Shown one piece after another: positions 16,672 through 64,000 of a stretch of DNA of 64,000 bases. Source of the stretch: Pseudomonadota bacterium (GTDB lineage: Bacteria > Pseudomonadota > Gammaproteobacteria > Steroidobacterales > Steroidobacteraceae); contig JAFEDS010000024.1 in assembly GCA_018241505.1 (NCBI GenBank), positions 62,001 through 126,000 of the forward strand, written 5' to 3'. Both the position numbers and the translations under genes were made by a program. Each line of letters starts with the position of its first letter. The first letter of the stretch is position 1. The notes below the pieces were generated by a model. The model ran no database searches. It had not been told where the DNA came from and saw only the letters and a list, made by a program, of their open reading frames with translations.

Positions 16672-17571
16672 ATGCGCGTTGGCTTTGTTGGTCTCGGCGC
16701 CATGGGCATGGGCATGTCGCGCAATCTTCATCGTGCCGGCCTGTTGAGCGCCGTCTGGAACCGCACGGCTGAGAAAGCCCAGACCCTCGCCGCCGAACTT
16801 GGTTGCAAAGCCCCCCCAACACTCGAAGCACTGGCTCCGGACGTTGATGCCGTGGTCGTCTGCGTCTCCGCGGATGATGACGTCCTGCAGGTCGTGACTG
16901 CCCTGGCGAAGGGTTTGCGCAAGGGGACACTGGTTATTGACTGCTCGACGGTCGGTGCGGACACAGCCCGCAAGGCGAGCACCATTCTGCAGCCGAGCGG
17001 TGTCGAGTTCCTGGATTGCCCCGTCAGTGGCGGCGTCGAAGGAGCGGAGAAAGCGACACTGGCGATCATGGTCGGCGGTACGCCAGAAGCGTTCGCTCAG
17101 GCGCAACCCATTCTCAATGCCATGGGCAAAACCGTTACCCACTTCGGCCCAACCGGCAGCGGCCAGGCGGCGAAGGCGACCAACCAGATCATGTGCGCCG
17201 GCATCATTGAGTGCGTGGCGGAAGCCATGGCGTTTGCCCGAGCACAGGGACTGCCACTCGACAAGGTCGTGGACACGCTGGGCAAAGGAGCCGGCTCGAG
17301 CTGGTACTTCGTTCACCGAGGTCCCAACATGGTGCGCGGTGCGTACCCGGCCGGCTTCAAAGTGCGTCTACATGCGAAAGACTTGGGTATTTGCCGCGAC
17401 ATGGCCGCTCGCTTCGGTGTTGCGTTGCCGGTCGTAGAGCGCATGCTCGGTGAATACGCCGAGCTGGTTTCCCGGGGCTACGGCGATGAGGACATCTCCG
17501 CGACCTTCAGGCTCAAGGAAGAGCTGTTCGAGCCCCCCGGAAAGGCCGGGGCACCCCGAAAGGACGCATGA
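16672..17571 (+). CDS. NAD(P)-dependent beta-hydroxyacid dehydrogenase
   Basis: Oxidoreductase of 299 residues in the 3-hydroxyisobutyrate/tartronate-semialdehyde family. The N-terminal Rossmann motif is GFVGLGAMGMGMSRNL, the substrate-binding block DCPVSGGVEGAEKATLAIMVGG, and the catalytic lysine lies in GSGQAAKATNQIM. The C-terminal all-helical domain has the usual LHAKDLGICRDMAARFG. The family's full length is about 290 residues. The exact substrate cannot be read from the motifs. Its stop overlaps the algZ start by four bases (ATGA), so it seems to head an operon with the two-component pair, an unusual partnership with no clear metabolic link. Confidence 0.85.
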   Translation: MRVGFVGLGAMGMGMSRNLHRAGLLSAVWNRTAEKAQTLAAELGCKAPPTLEALAPDVDAVVVCVSADDDVLQVVTALAKGLRKGTLVIDCSTVGADTARKASTILQPSGVEFLDCPVSGGVEGAEKATLAIMVGGTPEAFAQAQPILNAMGKTVTHFGPTGSGQAAKATNQIMCAGIIECVAEAMAFARAQGLPLDKVVDTLGKGAGSSWYFVHRGPNMVRGAYPAGFKVRLHAKDLGICRDMAARFGVALPVVERMLGEYAELVSRGYGDEDISATFRLKEELFEPPGKAGAPRKDA

Positions 17572-18641
17572 GAAACGGCACCGACGGCGCCGACGAGTCC
17601 TTCTACCTCCCTGATTTCTGCACTTCGCGTGCCGCGCTCGCCAATGTTCTCATCGTCGAGCTGACCGCACTGATCCTGACCCTCGCCCACGAAAATGTCG
17701 GCGTTGGGTTCTGGACAGATTTGTCCCGCACCTCCCTGTTCCTGTTGTGGATCGGCCTGGCAGGGGCCGCACTGTTGTGTTGGATGCGGCGGCTGTTGAG
17801 CCGGCTCGCGGTGGCAAGAGCTTCGGCCGTCGTGATGCTGCTGATCGCCGCCTTGATTGCAGTCATTTCCGCGTGCGCATACTCCGTCGGCCGCTCCAAC
17901 CTCGTTCAGGACGCCGGCGTCACCGCGCTGTTCCCGCCGGAACTACCGGCATTTCTCATCCGGAATGTGATCATCGGCCTGGTGATTACGGCGCTGGCGC
18001 TGAGATATTTCTATGTGATCCACGAATGGCGGCGCAACATCGAAATGCAGGCAACCGCGCGCGTTCACGCGCTCCAGGCGCGCATCCGGCCGCACTTCCT
18101 GTTCAACAGCATGAACACCATCGCCTCGTTGACACGCTCCAATCCGGCCGTCGCAGAAGAAGCTGTCCAGGATCTGGCCGATTTGTTTCGTGCCAACCTC
18201 AGTGATAAACGCGACACGATCACCCTGGAGCAGGAATATGAGGTGGCGCGAACATATCAGCGGATCGAGCAGTTGCGCCTCGGTTCCCGCCTGCATGTTG
18301 ATTGGAAGATCGACTCGCTGCCGCGCAAGGCTTTGGTCCCCGGGTTGATGCTCCAGCCGCTCTTGGAGAATGCGATTTATCACGGCATTGAGCCGCGGGC
18401 TGGTGGTGGGACGGTGACCATAACGGGCGAGCTGTCCGACAAGCTCATTACTATCGTCGTTCGCAATCCCGTTGGCGATTACGAGAGTGAACGTGAGGGT
18501 AACCGCCTCGCGTTGGCGAACATCCGCGAGCGACTCGGTCTGTTGTATGGCGAGAAGGGACTCGTCAAGTCAGGGCGATTTGACGACGAGTACATCGTGA
18601 CGTTGCGTTTCCCGCACGTTGAGACGCTGAATGAAGCCTAG
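17568..18641 (+). CDS. algZ: LytS/AlgZ-type sensor histidine kinase
   Basis: Sensor of 357 residues of the His_kinase family without a classical H box. Four hydrophobic segments occupy residues about 25-150; the phosphoacceptor is His176 in RIRPHFLFNSMNTIASL, and the ATPase domain has LQPLLENAIYHGIEPR with the N-box asparagine and NIRERLGLLYGEKG near the end. In Pseudomonas AlgZ (FimS) with AlgR controls twitching motility and alginate genes. It overlaps the dehydrogenase gene by four bases and algR by 11. The assignment to AlgZ rather than LytS is supported by the pairing with an AlgR-like regulator. Confidence 0.85.
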   Translation: MRNGTDGADESFYLPDFCTSRAALANVLIVELTALILTLAHENVGVGFWTDLSRTSLFLLWIGLAGAALLCWMRRLLSRLAVARASAVVMLLIAALIAVISACAYSVGRSNLVQDAGVTALFPPELPAFLIRNVIIGLVITALALRYFYVIHEWRRNIEMQATARVHALQARIRPHFLFNSMNTIASLTRSNPAVAEEAVQDLADLFRANLSDKRDTITLEQEYEVARTYQRIEQLRLGSRLHVDWKIDSLPRKALVPGLMLQPLLENAIYHGIEPRAGGGTVTITGELSDKLITIVVRNPVGDYESEREGNRLALANIRERLGLLYGEKGLVKSGRFDDEYIVTLRFPHVETLNEA

Positions 18642-59050: not shown

Positions 59051-59761
59051 TCACCGCGTCAACTCCCGGCCCTTCGAGCGCTCGTGCGCCTTCACCTCCA
59101 TCGCCAGCAACTGCACTCCGCGCAGGCGCGCCATCTGCAGCCTGTCCGGGTCACCACTGATCCCCGCTTCCAACAACTGCCGCCACACCTTCGGCCGCCC
59201 CGACCAGCGCGGCTTCAACCAACTCGCATGTTGCTCAGCGAGATCCGTCAACTGCAGTATCGAACACGTGCGCAGCAGCGCCACGCAATTCGCCGGCATC
59301 CCCAGAAACAGCGTCGCCTCCAATGGTTGTGTCTGTGCAATGTGCCAGGAGCCGGTGAATACACTGCGCGCCACCTGGTGAAGGCTGGGTGCCGTGAAGA
59401 ACCCCTTGTCGAAAATGAGGGGCGCGCGCTGCGTGTCCGCCACCCCGGCACGGGTACTTGCATGTTGGTCGCTCAGCCGCTGCCAGCGGTACGGATCGCT
59501 GAATCCGACGTCCATGAGCAGGTACGGACAAGCGGCCGCGCGCCGCCGCGCAACAGGATCCAGTTGACTCCATAGGTCCGGTAACTCCCTGAACATCGGC
59601 GGCGCCGACGGAACCGGCCGCAGAGCCTGCTCCGTCAACAGCGCCAGGCACCGCTCATTCAACTCCGTCAGCATCCCGAAAATATCTGCGCCGGCCACGG
59701 GCCGCGCCGCGATGTTGTGTTTGCCGTCCGGGCCTCGAGATTCTTCATTGTTCTGCCACAT
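59051..59761 (-). CDS. FlhD-like regulator (C-terminal part), partner candidate of the FlhC-like protein
   Basis: Protein of 236 residues, no signal peptide or membrane segment. Residues about 151-200 read LFLGMPANCVALLRTCSILQLTDLAEQ followed by RW and KVWRQLL. They line up by eye with FlhD of E. coli, where [20 protein letters not shown] leads to KLAE: the LG, L, QL and LAE positions agree with the same spacing. The N-terminal 140 residues are unrelated to FlhD, which has only about 116 in all. Resemblance is moderate, but a FlhC-like gene lies 1.5 kb away and FlhD and FlhC act as a complex. The ATG at 59761 is used; the upstream open frame crosses an operator-like palindrome and is unlikely to be coding. 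Confidence 0.5.
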   Translation of the reverse strand: MWQNNEESRGPDGKHNIAARPVAGADIFGMLTELNERCLALLTEQALRPVPSAPPMFRELPDLWSQLDPVARRRAAACPYLLMDVGFSDPYRWQRLSDQHASTRAGVADTQRAPLIFDKGFFTAPSLHQVARSVFTGSWHIAQTQPLEATLFLGMPANCVALLRTCSILQLTDLAEQHASWLKPRWSGRPKVWRQLLEAGISGDPDRLQMARLRGVQLLAMEVKAHERSKGRELTR

Positions 59762-59832
59762 GACACGACTCCCTACGCTTTCTTCCCTTCGCAGGTGAAT
59801 GTAGTCGAGAGCGCGGGAACTTGTATCAGCCT

Positions 59833-59856
59833 TTTTTGGGAAAATTTTCCCAAAAA
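59833..59856. promoter_or_regulatory. Operator-like palindrome, copy 1
   Basis: A 24-base perfect palindrome with core TTTGGGAAAATTTTCCCAAA, centred at 59844/59845, about 72 bases upstream of the start of the FlhD-like gene on the minus strand. As a hairpin it would have no proper loop and no separate T tail, so a protein-binding site is more likely than a terminator. Confidence 0.72.
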
Positions 59857-59944
59857 TAAAATGATCCCCTGCGGCGGCACAGCAACGGCACAGCACGCGC
59901 GCCGCGCGTTTTGAGGGAACAATGGAAAATTCGATTAATTTGTC

Positions 59945-59964
59945 TTTGGGAAAAAATTCCCAAA
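59945..59964. promoter_or_regulatory. Operator-like palindrome, copy 2 (imperfect)
   Basis: TTTGGGAAAAAATTCCCAAA has the arms TTTGGGAA and TTCCCAAA around AAAA instead of AATT. It lies 110 bases (centre to centre) from copy 1, 184 bases upstream of the FlhD-like start and 65 bases beyond the 3' end of the Rpn gene. It belongs to the same family as copies 1 and 3. Confidence 0.62.
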
Positions 59965-60028
59965 CCCGGGCTATTTAACAATAATCCAGGGGGCGGCAGT
60001 GGTGCTCGGGGCTAAACAGAAGGTTCAT

Positions 60029-61057
60029 TCACGTCTGAACAGGAAGCGGCTCGGCGAAAACCGCCTGCAGATCCTTTGCATCGAATACGCGGTCTAGCCA
60101 CGCATCGAGTGTCTGCACGTCCGCGCTGAAAACTTGCGCGCGAATGGGCTCTGGCAAGGCGCCGAAACGCCTCTCCAGCAGGCGGACAAGCGACTTCGCC
60201 TGTCCCTCTGCACGGCCTACTGCGTGGCCCTCTGCATGGCCTGCTGCGTGGCCCGCAGCCCGACCTTGCTCGAGACCTTCCTCGAAATACGGTTGAGTTA
60301 TCCAACCCATGATTTGCTCCTCGCGGTCGGGCACCCGACGGCGTAACACCTGATGCATCATTTCCCGGCTGACGGCGACCGGCCCCTTGTCCAGATAAGT
60401 CAGGAGCAAAAGCAGGTCTCGTCGCTCCAGCAATCCGGCCTCCGCCAGGATGATATCGAGGCGCTCAGGCGACTCAGGCCGCCTGGCGTACTTTAAGGCC
60501 TTCAGCAAGGCCCGCAAACGGGCCATAGTCGACAGGTTTTCATCCGCTATCGCGGGCAAATCCACCAGCGAATGCCGGAAACTGGGGAGATACGGACGCA
60601 ACGTTGGGGACACGTCTCCGAACAGGTCCGCAAATTCGCACGAAGCAGTCCATTCCCCTGGCCCTTGATGTGCCACTACGGAGACCACCGGGGGTAGCGG
60701 CAGTGTTCCCCCGTTTTGTTCATATAAGGTCGTCAGAAGGCGCACCACGTAACGCAGCAGTTGCAAGCGCGTGCCATCGTCGCACGAGCTTTTGTGTTCC
60801 AAGAGCAAGTACGCGAAGGCGTCGCCACCCGCTTTGAGTCGAAGGCGGAAGAGCAGATCGGAGTGATGCTGGCGCAGTTCCTCGTCCACGAAAGAAGCCG
60901 GGAGTGGCTCGGGCATCTCGGGGCCGAGTTGCTCCACGACTGCCGCAGGCAGGTGCTCGCGCAGGAACCTTCCGGCAAGCTCCGGGTCGCCCAGCACCTG
61001 CTTGAAGAAGGCATCGTGCAAGTTGGTGATCTGTGTCGACAAGGTCGCGTGTTTCAT
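60029..61057 (-). CDS. Rpn-family nuclease/putative transposase (PD-(D/E)XK)
   Basis: Protein of 342 residues of the YhgA/Rpn group (recombination-promoting nuclease). The start MKHATLSTQITNLHDAFFKQVLGDPELAGRFL is typical. The nuclease core has Asp67 in HHSDLLFRL and the ExK motif Glu87/Lys89 in LLLEHKSS. A tail of Gly-His-Ala tetrapeptides (about residues 275-300) precedes the C-terminus (LERRFGALPEPIRAQV). The chosen start ATG at 61057 matches the family; a longer frame to 61288 runs into operator copy 3 and is not coding. Related E. coli proteins cut DNA and promote RecA-independent recombination. It separates the FlhD-like and FlhC-like genes. Confidence 0.82.
   Translation of the reverse strand: MKHATLSTQITNLHDAFFKQVLGDPELAGRFLREHLPAAVVEQLGPEMPEPLPASFVDEELRQHHSDLLFRLRLKAGGDAFAYLLLEHKSSCDDGTRLQLLRYVVRLLTTLYEQNGGTLPLPPVVSVVAHQGPGEWTASCEFADLFGDVSPTLRPYLPSFRHSLVDLPAIADENLSTMARLRALLKALKYARRPESPERLDIILAEAGLLERRDLLLLLTYLDKGPVAVSREMMHQVLRRRVPDREEQIMGWITQPYFEEGLEQGRAAGHAAGHAEGHAVGRAEGQAKSLVRLLERRFGALPEPIRAQVFSADVQTLDAWLDRVFDAKDLQAVFAEPLPVQT
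60195..60264 (-). repeat. Tandem 12-base repeat encoding GHAx units
   Basis: On the minus strand the Rpn gene carries about five repeats of a 12-base unit that read GHAA, GHAE, GHAV, GRAE and GQAK. Such repeats occur in the C-terminal region of many Rpn proteins and can change in number by replication slippage, altering protein length. Confidence 0.7.
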
Positions 61058-61258
61058 GCACAGGCAACAGCGAAGAACCCGCCACACAGGCCGGCCTCTT
61101 CTGTCGCCGATTGCGATCATTGCAGCAGGGTATTTGCATGGATGTAAGCACCCAAATCTGTACCAATCAGCCAATAACTCGGTTGATGTTGCGTTCCGGG
61201 GCGCTCGAGCGGGAGCAAGTGGCGATTCTTCCCGAATAACGACCATTATCACCATTGC

Positions 61259-61282
61259 GTTTTGGGAAAATTTTCCCAAAAC
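61259..61282. promoter_or_regulatory. Operator-like palindrome, copy 3
   Basis: A second perfect 24-base palindrome with the core of copy 1 (TTTGGGAAAATTTTCCCAAA), centred at 61270/61271, lies 36 bases upstream of the FlhC-like start codon and about 200 bases upstream of the Rpn start. It thus sits where it can control both divergent genes. Confidence 0.72.
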
Positions 61283-61318
61283 TAGCAAGCAACAAAAATC
61301 AGCACACAGGGACGTGCC

Positions 61319-61867
61319 ATGCGAATTTCGGACGATCGTTACAATCGCGAGCGGCTGTCACTCGACCTTGCTCTCAAATTCCTGCGCTACGAAGCTCGCA
61401 CACAAACCATCCGGGCATGGACCGGATTGAGCGATGACCGGATCCGGAATCTCTATCGCTCCTACATGAGCCGCGGCGGCAACTTCGTCCCACGCCATCG
61501 CGGGAAGTCGCCGCACCAGGTGGCTTACTTCATGCGGTCACATCGATTGCAGTGGGAGAGCGCGCAATTGGCGAGCCTGTTGAGTTTGTTTGGTGTGGTC
61601 CCCCTGCAATCGAGCCCGGAAGTGGCTGCCGCGCTCCCGTCGGTCGGCCGCGGGGAACGACTCTGCAGCGCCTTCGAGCTGTATCGCACAACGATTCCCA
61701 CTGCGCAGATTTCTTTCGAACACTCGGTATTTCTTGCCAAGGCATTGGCCCGTGGCGATCAGATCAAACTCGATGGCTGCCGGGAGTGCGGAGGTCTGCT
61801 CGTCATGGAGCGGCTGCCCCTGCGCGAGCGGCGGTGTCAGTACTGCCTGGTCACGCAGTCCGGCTGA
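61319..61867 (+). CDS. FlhC-like transcriptional regulator with zinc site
   Basis: Protein of 182 residues resembling FlhC (192 residues in E. coli), the DNA-binding partner of FlhD. The N-terminal helix-turn-helix-like region LDLALKFLRYEARTQTIRAW, then GLSDDRIRNLYRSYM, corresponds to the FlhC start (LAMELITLGARLQMLE, then LSRGRLIKLYKEL). The zinc site has four cysteines, C154, C157, C173 and C176 (CRECG, then CQYC); FlhC has CxxC and CxxC with almost identical spacing. No flagellar gene is in the window. The ribosome site AGGGA is nine bases upstream. Operator copy 3 lies 36 bases upstream. A non-flagellar regulator is likely. Confidence 0.72.
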   Translation: MRISDDRYNRERLSLDLALKFLRYEARTQTIRAWTGLSDDRIRNLYRSYMSRGGNFVPRHRGKSPHQVAYFMRSHRLQWESAQLASLLSLFGVVPLQSSPEVAAALPSVGRGERLCSAFELYRTTIPTAQISFEHSVFLAKALARGDQIKLDGCRECGGLLVMERLPLRERRCQYCLVTQSG

Positions 61868-61935: not shown

Positions 61936-62946
61936 TCATCGAGGCGGGTGGCAGGCACTCGGCAGCATCTTGTCGGGAATGTTGGTGTAACGCTGATAGT
62001 CGTTAACTGACACCGTCACATCCGGTGGTGCAGCCGCATGCCCGCAGACCCAGTGCAGCTCGGTTCCACGCGAACCCGGAACCAACACCAGGTGGCCTCC
62101 TGTGATCTTTTTGTTGGCCGCCCGCCCATACTGAATATCAACGGCGCCCTGGGCCACTCGAATGGCGCCCACATATTTCGCCGTGTCGGGCAGCGTCACA
62201 TCCAGCTTGGATGAGTCGATGGAATTGAGTGGCGTGCCGCCGGCAACAGCCGCTGCGACCGCCGTTTTGAAGGGCTCGGCCATGACCAACCCTTCCGTGA
62301 TCTGCGCCCGGATCGTGTAGTCCTGGTACGCGGGAATCGCGATGGCGGCCACGAGGCCGATGCCCGTAGGTCCGAACAACATGACGCCGATGACGGCCAC
62401 AATCGCCAGCCCGATCGACACCGGCGGTGCCGGGCCCGCCTGGGCGATGTCTTCGGGCGACTCGGCGCGGCGCACCACGAGCGTGCCGGCTATCTTGTCA
62501 TGCAGAGTCTGCCGTCGCTCAGTGAACACGGCCATGGCAAACCCGATCCCCAGAATCAGGTAGCTCAGAATATGGCCGAACAATCGGCCCAGCGCGCGCC
62601 CCAAGCCGATCCGTTCGCCATTCAGGTCGGTTACTTTGAGATCCAGCGCCTTTTTGCCCAGCGTTGCCTGCAGGCTGGAGCTCTCCATGAGCGCGTAATA
62701 GAGGCAACCCACAACAGGCAGGACCAGTGCCATCAAGCCGCCCTTGGGGCCGAGCGCCAATCTCGGGACCTGCATTACAATCATGACAATGATGTAGTCG
62801 ATTACGAAGGCACCGGATCTTTTCCAGAAACCGGCATACGGCATCGAACCGCCGGAGCGGTATTCGGACTGGGAGGCCGTGGCGGGACTGACCGCGTAGC
62901 GGTTGTCGGTCGAACGGGGGGACGAAGTCGAGCTCTCACCGTGCAT
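61936..62946 (-). CDS. RDD membrane domain fused to a type IV pilin-like domain
   Basis: Protein of 336 residues. After a Ser-rich N-terminus (1-30), residues about 36-160 form an RDD membrane domain (YAGFWKRSGAFVIDYIIV, LGKKALDLKVTDLNGERIGL, FTERRQTLHDKIAGTLVV). Residues about 180-335 resemble the mature part of type IV pilins: VAAIAIPAYQDYTIRAQITEGLVMAEPFK is close to PilA, with a hydrophobic helix, but without the prepilin peptidase site. The C-terminal cysteines in HWVCGHAAA and SACHPP may form the pilin disulfide loop. The ATG at 62946 has GGGAG eight bases upstream on the minus strand. The fold combination suggests that the pilin-like part is exposed outside the inner membrane. Confidence 0.8.
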   Translation of the reverse strand: MHGESSTSSPRSTDNRYAVSPATASQSEYRSGGSMPYAGFWKRSGAFVIDYIIVMIVMQVPRLALGPKGGLMALVLPVVGCLYYALMESSSLQATLGKKALDLKVTDLNGERIGLGRALGRLFGHILSYLILGIGFAMAVFTERRQTLHDKIAGTLVVRRAESPEDIAQAGPAPPVSIGLAIVAVIGVMLFGPTGIGLVAAIAIPAYQDYTIRAQITEGLVMAEPFKTAVAAAVAGGTPLNSIDSSKLDVTLPDTAKYVGAIRVAQGAVDIQYGRAANKKITGGHLVLVPGSRGTELHWVCGHAAAPPDVTVSVNDYQRYTNIPDKMLPSACHPPR

Positions 62947-62973
62947 AGTCAACTCCCTGTGGACGCGATGGTT

Positions 62974-62997
62974 ATAGCGGGCCCCGGGGCCCGCTAT
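62974..62997. repeat. 24-base perfect palindrome at the tamB stop codon
   Basis: ATAGCGGGCCCC and GGGGCCCGCTAT meet without a loop. TTTTT (62997-63001) follows on the plus strand, so it could stop plus-strand transcripts; on the minus strand, where both neighbouring genes are read, it overlaps the tamB stop and lies upstream of the RDD-pilin gene. Confidence 0.55.
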
Positions 62998-64000
62998 TTT
63001 TGAATGGTGTAGACCAGGTCGGCCCCTCTGGCCTGCCCGACTTCAGTCTTGATCGTCCAGCGATCGCCGAGACTGTAACGCAACTTGAGCACATTCAACT
63101 GTTCGGTCAGGGCTATGCCGTAACTGACATACAACCGCGGCGAAAGATAACGCCCCAACACCAACGAGGTCTCGTTGGTCAGGTCGGATTCGAGACTCAC
63201 GTCCTCGATCCCCACCTTCGAGCCCAGTTGTTGCGCCAGGATGGCACCGCCCTGCGCCAGCATTTCATTGCTGCCGGATTGACGGCCCTGCGCGGATTCA
63301 AACGACCCGCCGGACAGGATCAAGGAGGCGATCTGGGACTGGGTCAGCGAAGGATCCGAGAAGAAGCTCATGCGCGGTTGGAGCAAGGTGCCGCGCACGT
63401 TCACGCCCGCAATGACATCCGGAAACTCCTTGACCGCCCGGATATCCAGTCCCGGGTTGGTAACCGGGCCGCCGGTAAATATCAGCCGGCCGCGCTGGAT
63501 ATCGAGCTTGCGTGCATATGCCGAGTACTTCCCCTGTTCAATAGAGAGCTCGCCCTGGGCGGTAGAGGCCTCGTCGTAGCCGCTGCGGACGGTCACGTTG
63601 CCGGTCAGCCGGCCGGTCAAACCCGAGGTGTCGATGCTGACTTTATCTTCGAGGCCGAGGGAGATGGTGCTGGTCACCTCGAAGCGTTTGGTTGGATCGG
63701 TCTGCTCCTGGCCCACGACCACTTCGTCCGAGGATGACCGGACCGCACCGGTCAGGTCCGCCGGGACTATCTTGGCGTAGGGAACCTTGACGGACCCCGT
63801 GACATCGATCTTGCGGCCGCTGATGTTGAATTGCAGGTTGGGTGAGGCATCGATCTGGGCCTCGGGTACATCGGTCACCCGCAGGTTCGAGCCATCGACA
63901 TTGACCGTGCCGTACGGCAGGGAATTGCGCCATTCGAGCCGGCCGGTTGCATGGGCAATGCCGGAGCCGATCCGCGCGGAACCCTTGAAGTCCACGCCGT
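62994..64000 (-). CDS. tamB: Translocation/assembly module TamB, C-terminal part (cut by window edge)
   Basis: Only the last 335 or so residues lie in the window; the frame is open to the right edge. They include repeated beta-strand segments (GSARIGSGIAHATGRLEWRN, VTGSVKVPYAKIVP) and the DUF490 end block, with DPSLTQSQIASLILSGGS, QLGSKVGIEDVSLESDL and the terminal RWTIKTEVGQARGADLVYTIQK, typical of TamB. TamB forms a hydrophobic groove spanning the periplasm and works with TamA in outer-membrane lipid or protein transport. The start cannot be seen. An ATG or GTG inside this stretch is not the true start. Confidence 0.88.
   Translation of the reverse strand, partial: GVDFKGSARIGSGIAHATGRLEWRNSLPYGTVNVDGSNLRVTDVPEAQIDASPNLQFNISGRKIDVTGSVKVPYAKIVPADLTGAVRSSSDEVVVGQEQTDPTKRFEVTSTISLGLEDKVSIDTSGLTGRLTGNVTVRSGYDEASTAQGELSIEQGKYSAYARKLDIQRGRLIFTGGPVTNPGLDIRAVKEFPDVIAGVNVRGTLLQPRMSFFSDPSLTQSQIASLILSGGSFESAQGRQSGSNEMLAQGGAILAQQLGSKVGIEDVSLESDLTNETSLVLGRYLSPRLYVSYGIALTEQLNVLKLRYSLGDRWTIKTEVGQARGADLVYTIQK

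Follow-up and report, generated by a model that had tools for sequence, protein, structure and literature searches.

Complexes of the FlhDC type are known as the master activators that switch on flagella or conjugative transfer. Flagellar FlhD is a single domain of approximately 115 residues, its gene lies with that of FlhC in one flhDC operon, and the SetCD regulator of the SXT/R391 elements is similar to the AcaCD regulator of IncA/IncC plasmids. This article concerns another FlhDC-like pair, of which, to our knowledge, no description exists, located in a stretch of 64,000 nucleotides (hereafter the window) from a Pseudomonadota bacterium (assembly GCA_018241505.1, contig JAFEDS010000024.1, positions 62,001 to 126,000 of the forward strand). 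The pair consists of P0001, a D-type subunit of 236 residues, and P0002, an FlhC-like subunit of 182 residues, and was brought to attention by an original prediction made from the letters of the window alone.

The closest described systems are carried by mobile elements. AcaCD is reported to be a heteromer in which AcaD has a mass of 22.8 kDa and whose subunits match the FlhC and FlhD families of Pfam weakly (PMC4605294, PMC4207636), and its role is non-flagellar (PMC4207636). BisDC of ICEclc is presented as a two-subunit activator with an FlhC-resembling C subunit (DUF2857) and feedback on its own expression; it is element-borne, and BisD is a ParB-domain protein in which no FlhD domain is reported to have been found (PMC7423338). 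No paper joining FlhC with TamA and TamB was found in the open-access full-text literature, and the open-access literature on FlhDC-like regulators yielded nothing on such a pair among the matches listed.

In the explanation that we favour, with a probability of roughly 0.55, P0001 and P0002 would constitute a self-regulated, two-subunit chromosomal regulator of the FlhDC/AcaCD type, the likeliest output of which is its own tam operon.

Homology of the two proteins to FlhC and FlhD

P0002 is an FlhC-type subunit with a four-cysteine site and is homologous to FlhC, as its layout had led the original prediction to propose. The single sequence matches Pfam FlhC with an expect value (E) of 5.5e-5 and 23.4 bits, just below the curated cut-off of 27, and 31 of the 32 members of its family match the same model at E ≤1 (best 5.6e-7). 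Residues C154, C157, C173 and C176 are invariant across the 32 sequences of the family alignment (A4), and in a comparison of the family profile with the PDB at E up to 1, two FlhC chains were the sole matches (7.5e-4 and 0.022).

The C-terminal half of P0001 is homologous to FlhD. When the profile of the P0001 family (A3, 36 sequences) was compared with 177,635 PDB sequences, FlhD occupied the top three places (E 0.0035, 0.0065 and 0.014), the next match following at 0.3. In hhalign comparisons with eight FlhD-type proteins, four of which exceed the Pfam FlhD cut-off, residues 129-211 of P0001 were aligned with a probability of 92 (E 6e-7), a segment containing the stretch 151-200 that had previously been matched to FlhD by eye; the C-terminal part alone reached 95, and the reversed and FlhC controls gave 0.1-0.3. 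FlhD is also the Pfam family matching the largest number of P0001 family members (best E 1.5e-4), and one open reading frame from another genome of the class is matched by the FlhD model and the P0001 profile alike. The gene that follows it shows an FlhC-like cysteine pattern by eye and is not among the matches of the FlhC-like profile A2. The profile searches proposed together with the original prediction place FlhD at the top for the P0001 family and FlhC for P0002.

Several observations weigh against this assignment. P0001 as a single sequence has no match in Pfam, nor in NCBIfam; just 8 of the 36 family members touch Pfam FlhD; and the P0001 profile recovered only four of eight FlhD-type loci (E 1.2e-6 to 0.0015) within a small set, the reading frames of 15 loci. 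A search of the source genome with the Pfam FlhD model gave nothing useful, and no Pfam match to ParB was obtained up to E 10 in P0001 or the A3 members. FlhD-type proteins of 97 residues, with FlhC-like open reading frames nearby (profile A2), were also observed elsewhere in the class, in three further genomes (L076, L077 and L080), and perhaps represent another FlhDC-like group.

The N-terminal half of P0001 is probably a second FlhD-like domain, as remote sequence comparison suggests. Its probability against FlhD was 76 with 56 sequences and 88 with a domain alignment of 35 sequences headed by a member of a distant genus. The first PDB match of the latter alignment was FlhD at E 0.0016, followed by two more FlhD sequences at 0.28 and 0.51, with proteasome matches mixed in from E 0.21 on, and five of its 35 members match Pfam FlhD, the best at an E of only 0.069. 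Set against the second domain, the 36-sequence set gave a probability of 1.9, so that values of 76-88 were reached only with more diverse sequence sets, and the two halves of P0001 match each other weakly (0.5 and 1.0).

A clear instance of the same architecture is offered by a protein of plasmid pRA1 (L149:45679-46287), 202 residues long and annotated as hypothetical, which was taken as AcaD because it is placed before an FlhC-type gene. Its halves match each other with a probability of 96.9 and FlhD with 94.5 and 95.4 (alignment of three relatives), and it clearly comprises two FlhD-like domains in tandem. Since the C-terminal and probably also the N-terminal half of P0001 are FlhD-like, a single P0001 chain would correspond to a pair of FlhD protomers, like AcaD.

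This parallel raises the question of origin. The pair might descend from an AcaCD/SetCD-type activator of a conjugative element and be its domesticated relic, as suggested by the shared architecture (a D subunit of about 200 residues with two FlhD-like domains, together with a small FlhC-like subunit) and by the probability of 32.8 between the P0001 C-terminal domain and the AcaD N-terminal domain. P0001 and AcaD as wholes, however, are not specifically close (6.9), plasmid matches did not fall below E 0.09 for P0001 and E 0.1 for P0002, and most mapped loci share the same neighbours, nudC-(TANGO2)-tamAB. A relic origin is improbable, and it would be compatible with the favoured explanation in any case. 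A plasmid origin visible through close relatives was rejected on the two plasmid E values.

Conservation of the pair and its palindromic control region

Relatives of the pair were sought in 200 genomes of the family, which is probably Steroidobacteraceae. P0001 relatives are present in 178 (single-protein search) and FlhC-like relatives in 187 (profile search); combined by hand, both genes occur in 178 genomes, the FlhC-like gene alone in 9, neither in 13 and P0001 alone in none, two P0001-negative genomes that are not among the matches listed being deduced. The linkage foreseen in the original prediction was borne out by these relatives: among the 108 genomes with both places among the matches listed, the source genome left out, 101 carry the two genes divergently within 1 kilobase (kb), with a gap between match ends of 109-382 base pairs (bp; median 217 bp). 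The remaining seven comprise two genomes with the genes in tandem on one strand and five with the genes on different contigs. Across 369 sampled genomes of the class, in many of which the best eight candidates were scored, the P0001 profile detected three family genomes (source included) and two weak outside matches, one of which is an FlhD-type open reading frame also matched by the FlhD model. We infer vertical inheritance of the pair in the family.

A NUDIX gene, the usual neighbour described below, was matched in six of the 13 pair-less genomes, the other seven having no NUDIX match. In four of the six (G014, G096, G129 and G007), absence of the pair looks like an assembly break, because the 5' side of the NUDIX gene is cut by a contig end or lies within about 150 bases of it; in G059 (about 7 kb) and G138 (about 1.4 kb), the sequence upstream of the NUDIX gene is present and the pair is absent. 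Additional copies were also observed. One contig (L090:8551-9249 and 17051-17920) carries a second, diverged pair copy whose FlhC-like and P0001-like genes are about 8 kb apart, and a third FlhC-like match in one genome (L036 / L095), close to a contig end and with two internal stop codons, is probably a decayed copy.

The control region between the genes is marked by a palindrome with the consensus TTTGGK-N-A-N4-T-N-MCCAAA. As had been noted before, the window carries it in both intergenic spaces, each time as a perfect 22-bp copy (Table 1), and shuffled versions of the window contain no such palindromes. In the relatives, 43 distinct divergent gaps were compared after 22 duplicates had been dropped, each gap including up to about 30 or more 5' codons of P0001. 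Sites matching 9 or more of the 12 fixed bases occur in 37 gaps and sites matching 11 or more in 25, and 21 gaps hold two sites (≥9 of 12) spaced 34-36 bp apart. Scored only as a 22-bp palindrome, at least 7 of 8 arm pairs are found in 33/43 gaps versus 1117/8600 (13%) of resampled gaps with the same dinucleotide steps, and a perfect 8 of 8 in 17/43 versus 62/8600 (0.7%).

The palindromes are not enriched elsewhere in the genomes scanned. Across the 200 genomes, the exact pattern has 27 sites, of which 21 lie in the pair's gap (including one in G064, upstream of P0001, where the FlhC-like place is not among the matches listed) and six elsewhere, against 11 control sites. With one mismatch allowed in 12 chosen genomes, there are 33 sites, 20 in the gap and 13 elsewhere, versus 14 in the control. 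The source genome (7.88 megabases, 93.9% complete) contains no further exact match to TTGGGAAAN{1,6}TTCCCAA. A regulon marked by extra copies of the palindrome was rejected on the two comparisons with controls.

Given their position between the two genes in 37 of 43 relatives and the lack of enrichment at other places in the scanned genomes, the palindromes are very probably the pair's own operators, and the self-regulation put forward in the original prediction is likewise very probable through these conserved sites. P0001 and P0002 would bind each other and then the palindromes of the shared divergent control region. Site 2 in many relatives lies between TTGNGT-like and AAMAAT-like hexamers about 17 bp apart, judged by eye. 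Since the putative FlhC-like core promoter would overlap one palindrome in many relatives, the complex is expected to control its own synthesis, most likely through repression or a repress/activate switch.

Some results count against operators of this kind. The 43 gaps were taken from the best P0001 matches; six of them (L018, L026, L028, L029, L062 and L064) hold no site at 9 of 12; a consensus promoter scan reported no promoter at the by-eye -35/-10 place; and only 17 of 200 genomes have the exact pattern in the gap between the pair, so that in most genomes of the family the site is diverged or missing. A terminator scan of the locus gave nothing useful.

The palindromes might instead be bound by a different regulator, with the FlhDC-like pair as its target, acting on other genes via other sites. 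A known FlhDC-type site does differ, AcaCD using the GCCCTAAAAGGGC inverted repeat at SGI1 Pxis (PMC4605294), and no further palindrome copies mark a regulon. Nevertheless, the palindromes occur alongside the pair in the majority of gaps compared, with no enrichment at other places in the scanned genomes, as expected for binding by the pair itself, and a separate regulator would have to be equally dedicated. We regard this alternative as unlikely, though worth keeping in view.

The source genome departs from its relatives in the nuclease gene lying between the pair. Its identification as a recombination-promoting nuclease in the original prediction was confirmed (Table 1), but the split around the nuclease as a designed arrangement is not supported: the nuclease was sought in 29 relative loci without success, and the 109-382 bp between the genes in 101 genomes is too short to contain it. 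The source genome has Rpn-type matches at five other places, with at most 33% identity over long stretches, and the gene is most likely a passenger that was inserted late. A 32-nucleotide inverted repeat (59835-59866 / 59933-59964, 81% complementary) surrounds the two P0001-side palindromes and may be a trace of the insertion's origin. In an alignment with the nearest relative, the window still resembles the promoter region on its FlhC side (score 53 versus a shuffle maximum of 30), site 1 being a remnant at best there, and the P0001 side aligns only via its palindrome and is not above shuffles (36 versus 39).

The original prediction had further suggested that the pair is a self-regulated switch, possibly controlling this nuclease, which would agree with palindromes on both sides of the gene in the source genome. 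The empty relative loci, gaps too small for such a gene and the scattered Rpn genes speak against it, and we consider it highly implausible; control of the nuclease by the pair was rejected on these grounds.

The tam neighbourhood as the likeliest output

A neighbourhood map was built from profiles of six gene families, identified by Pfam with one representative each. The usual order in relatives is P0001, FlhC-like, NUDIX, TANGO2, TamA and TamB, with the last five on the same strand, and the TANGO2 gene was not found in every mapped locus. Sequence downstream of the FlhC-like gene was available for 55 loci, reduced to 53 by removal of two second copies (L133 of L069 and L142 of L061). A NUDIX gene follows on the same strand in 47 of the 53, within 250 bp in 40, and tamA and tamB are also on that strand in 40. 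The FlhC-like and NUDIX genes of L091 share 4 bp, with P0001 ahead of them on the same strand.

In the source genome (L129), P0001 is on the minus strand and the FlhC-like gene on the plus strand, followed by TamB, TamA, TANGO2 and NUDIX, all on the minus strand, the tam block being inverted relative to the nearest relative (L037). With a nuclease gene that appears to have been inserted and a tam block that appears to have been inverted, the local copy would be an altered version of the family arrangement. The features of the locus are collected in Table 1; between the FlhC-like gene and tamB, positions 61936-62952 encode a protein in which a pilin domain comes after an RDD domain (Pfam).

Table 1. 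Features of the FlhDC-like locus, in positions of the window
Feature	Position	Strand	Remarks
P0001, D-type subunit, 236 residues	59051..59761	-	FlhD-like domain ~119-225, probable second ~22-95
Perfect 22-bp palindrome	59834..59855		73 bp upstream of P0001 start; proposed operator
Variant palindrome	59945..59964		~183 bp upstream of P0001 start
P0003, Rpn/YhgA-type nuclease gene, 342 residues	60029..61057	-	Between P0001 and P0002; Transposase_31, E 2e-44
Perfect 22-bp palindrome	61260..61281		59 bp upstream of FlhC-like start; position corresponds to site 2 of relatives
P0002, FlhC-like subunit, 182 residues	61319..61867	+	Invariant C154/C157/C173/C176
tamB, 3' part	62994..63998	-	First visible gene of tamB-tamA-TANGO2-NUDIX block; orientation inverted vs most relatives

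With the FlhC-like gene usually at the head of nudC-(TANGO2)-tamA-tamB, this outer-membrane-assembly operon, presumably read as a single transcript, is the likeliest main output of the pair and would be controlled in cis. Other aspects of the map weaken that proposal. The distance to the NUDIX gene is 308-5398 bp in 7 of the 47 loci; no such gene was found downstream in L059 and L071, which with the source genome and L092, L094 and L148 make up the six of 53 loci lacking a downstream same-strand NUDIX gene; and the last three carry extra pair copies away from tam. Moreover, simple common descent would likewise lead to a conserved gene order, and linkage by itself does not demonstrate control.

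Flagella offer another conceivable output. The absence of flagellar genes noted in the original prediction is true of the locus and not of the source genome as a whole, which has three flagellin matches. That the pair is the flagellar master regulator of the family would accord with its FlhD/FlhC homology and with the presence of flagellin in 126 of the 200 family genomes, source included. Both genes are kept, however, in 17 of 20 listed flagellin-negative genomes (54 more without a match are not listed), several of them at least 97% complete; palindromes elsewhere are not above control; and the neighbours are tam genes. It is very improbable, and a flagellar role as the main one was rejected on account of the flagellin-negative genomes.

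Comparison with known FlhDC-type systems

Taken together, a possible picture, offered tentatively, is a family-wide recruitment of the FlhDC superfamily as the dedicated, self-limiting controller of one operon (nudC-TANGO2-tamA-tamB), by means of a D subunit that unites two FlhD domains in a single chain and one palindrome specific to the pair; the complex would then act as a local autoregulator and not as a master regulator of flagella or conjugation. The pair forms a third, chromosomal branch of the FlhDC type, present in most sampled genomes of one family, tied to outer-membrane assembly genes and with a palindrome that does not rise above background elsewhere in the scanned genomes, and would supply a candidate regulator for the tam genes. 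It also opens the questions of how palindromes are recognised by FlhDC-type complexes and whether a duplicated FlhD, clear in AcaD and probable in P0001, has arisen repeatedly as a means of building the complex.

Of the known systems, FlhDC (Pfam PF05247 and PF05280; PDB 2avu and 8j56) has both subunits homologous to P0001 and P0002, and the pair shares with it the FlhC-type cysteine pattern and the adjacency of the two genes in relatives. Unlike FlhDC, P0001 is about double the length, with a probable second FlhD-like domain; the genes are divergent in most relatives instead of forming an flhDC operon; the palindromes lie mainly in the pair's own control region; and the pair stands beside tam genes and is kept without flagellin. 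BisDC resembles the pair in its FlhC-like C subunit and two-subunit make-up, but P0001, unlike BisD, has no ParB match. AcaCD of IncA/IncC plasmids is similar in combining a long D subunit with a small FlhC-like subunit, whereas its D and C genes overlap; the present pair, divergent in most relatives, is chromosomal with conserved tam neighbours, has a different palindrome and is not specifically close to AcaCD in sequence.

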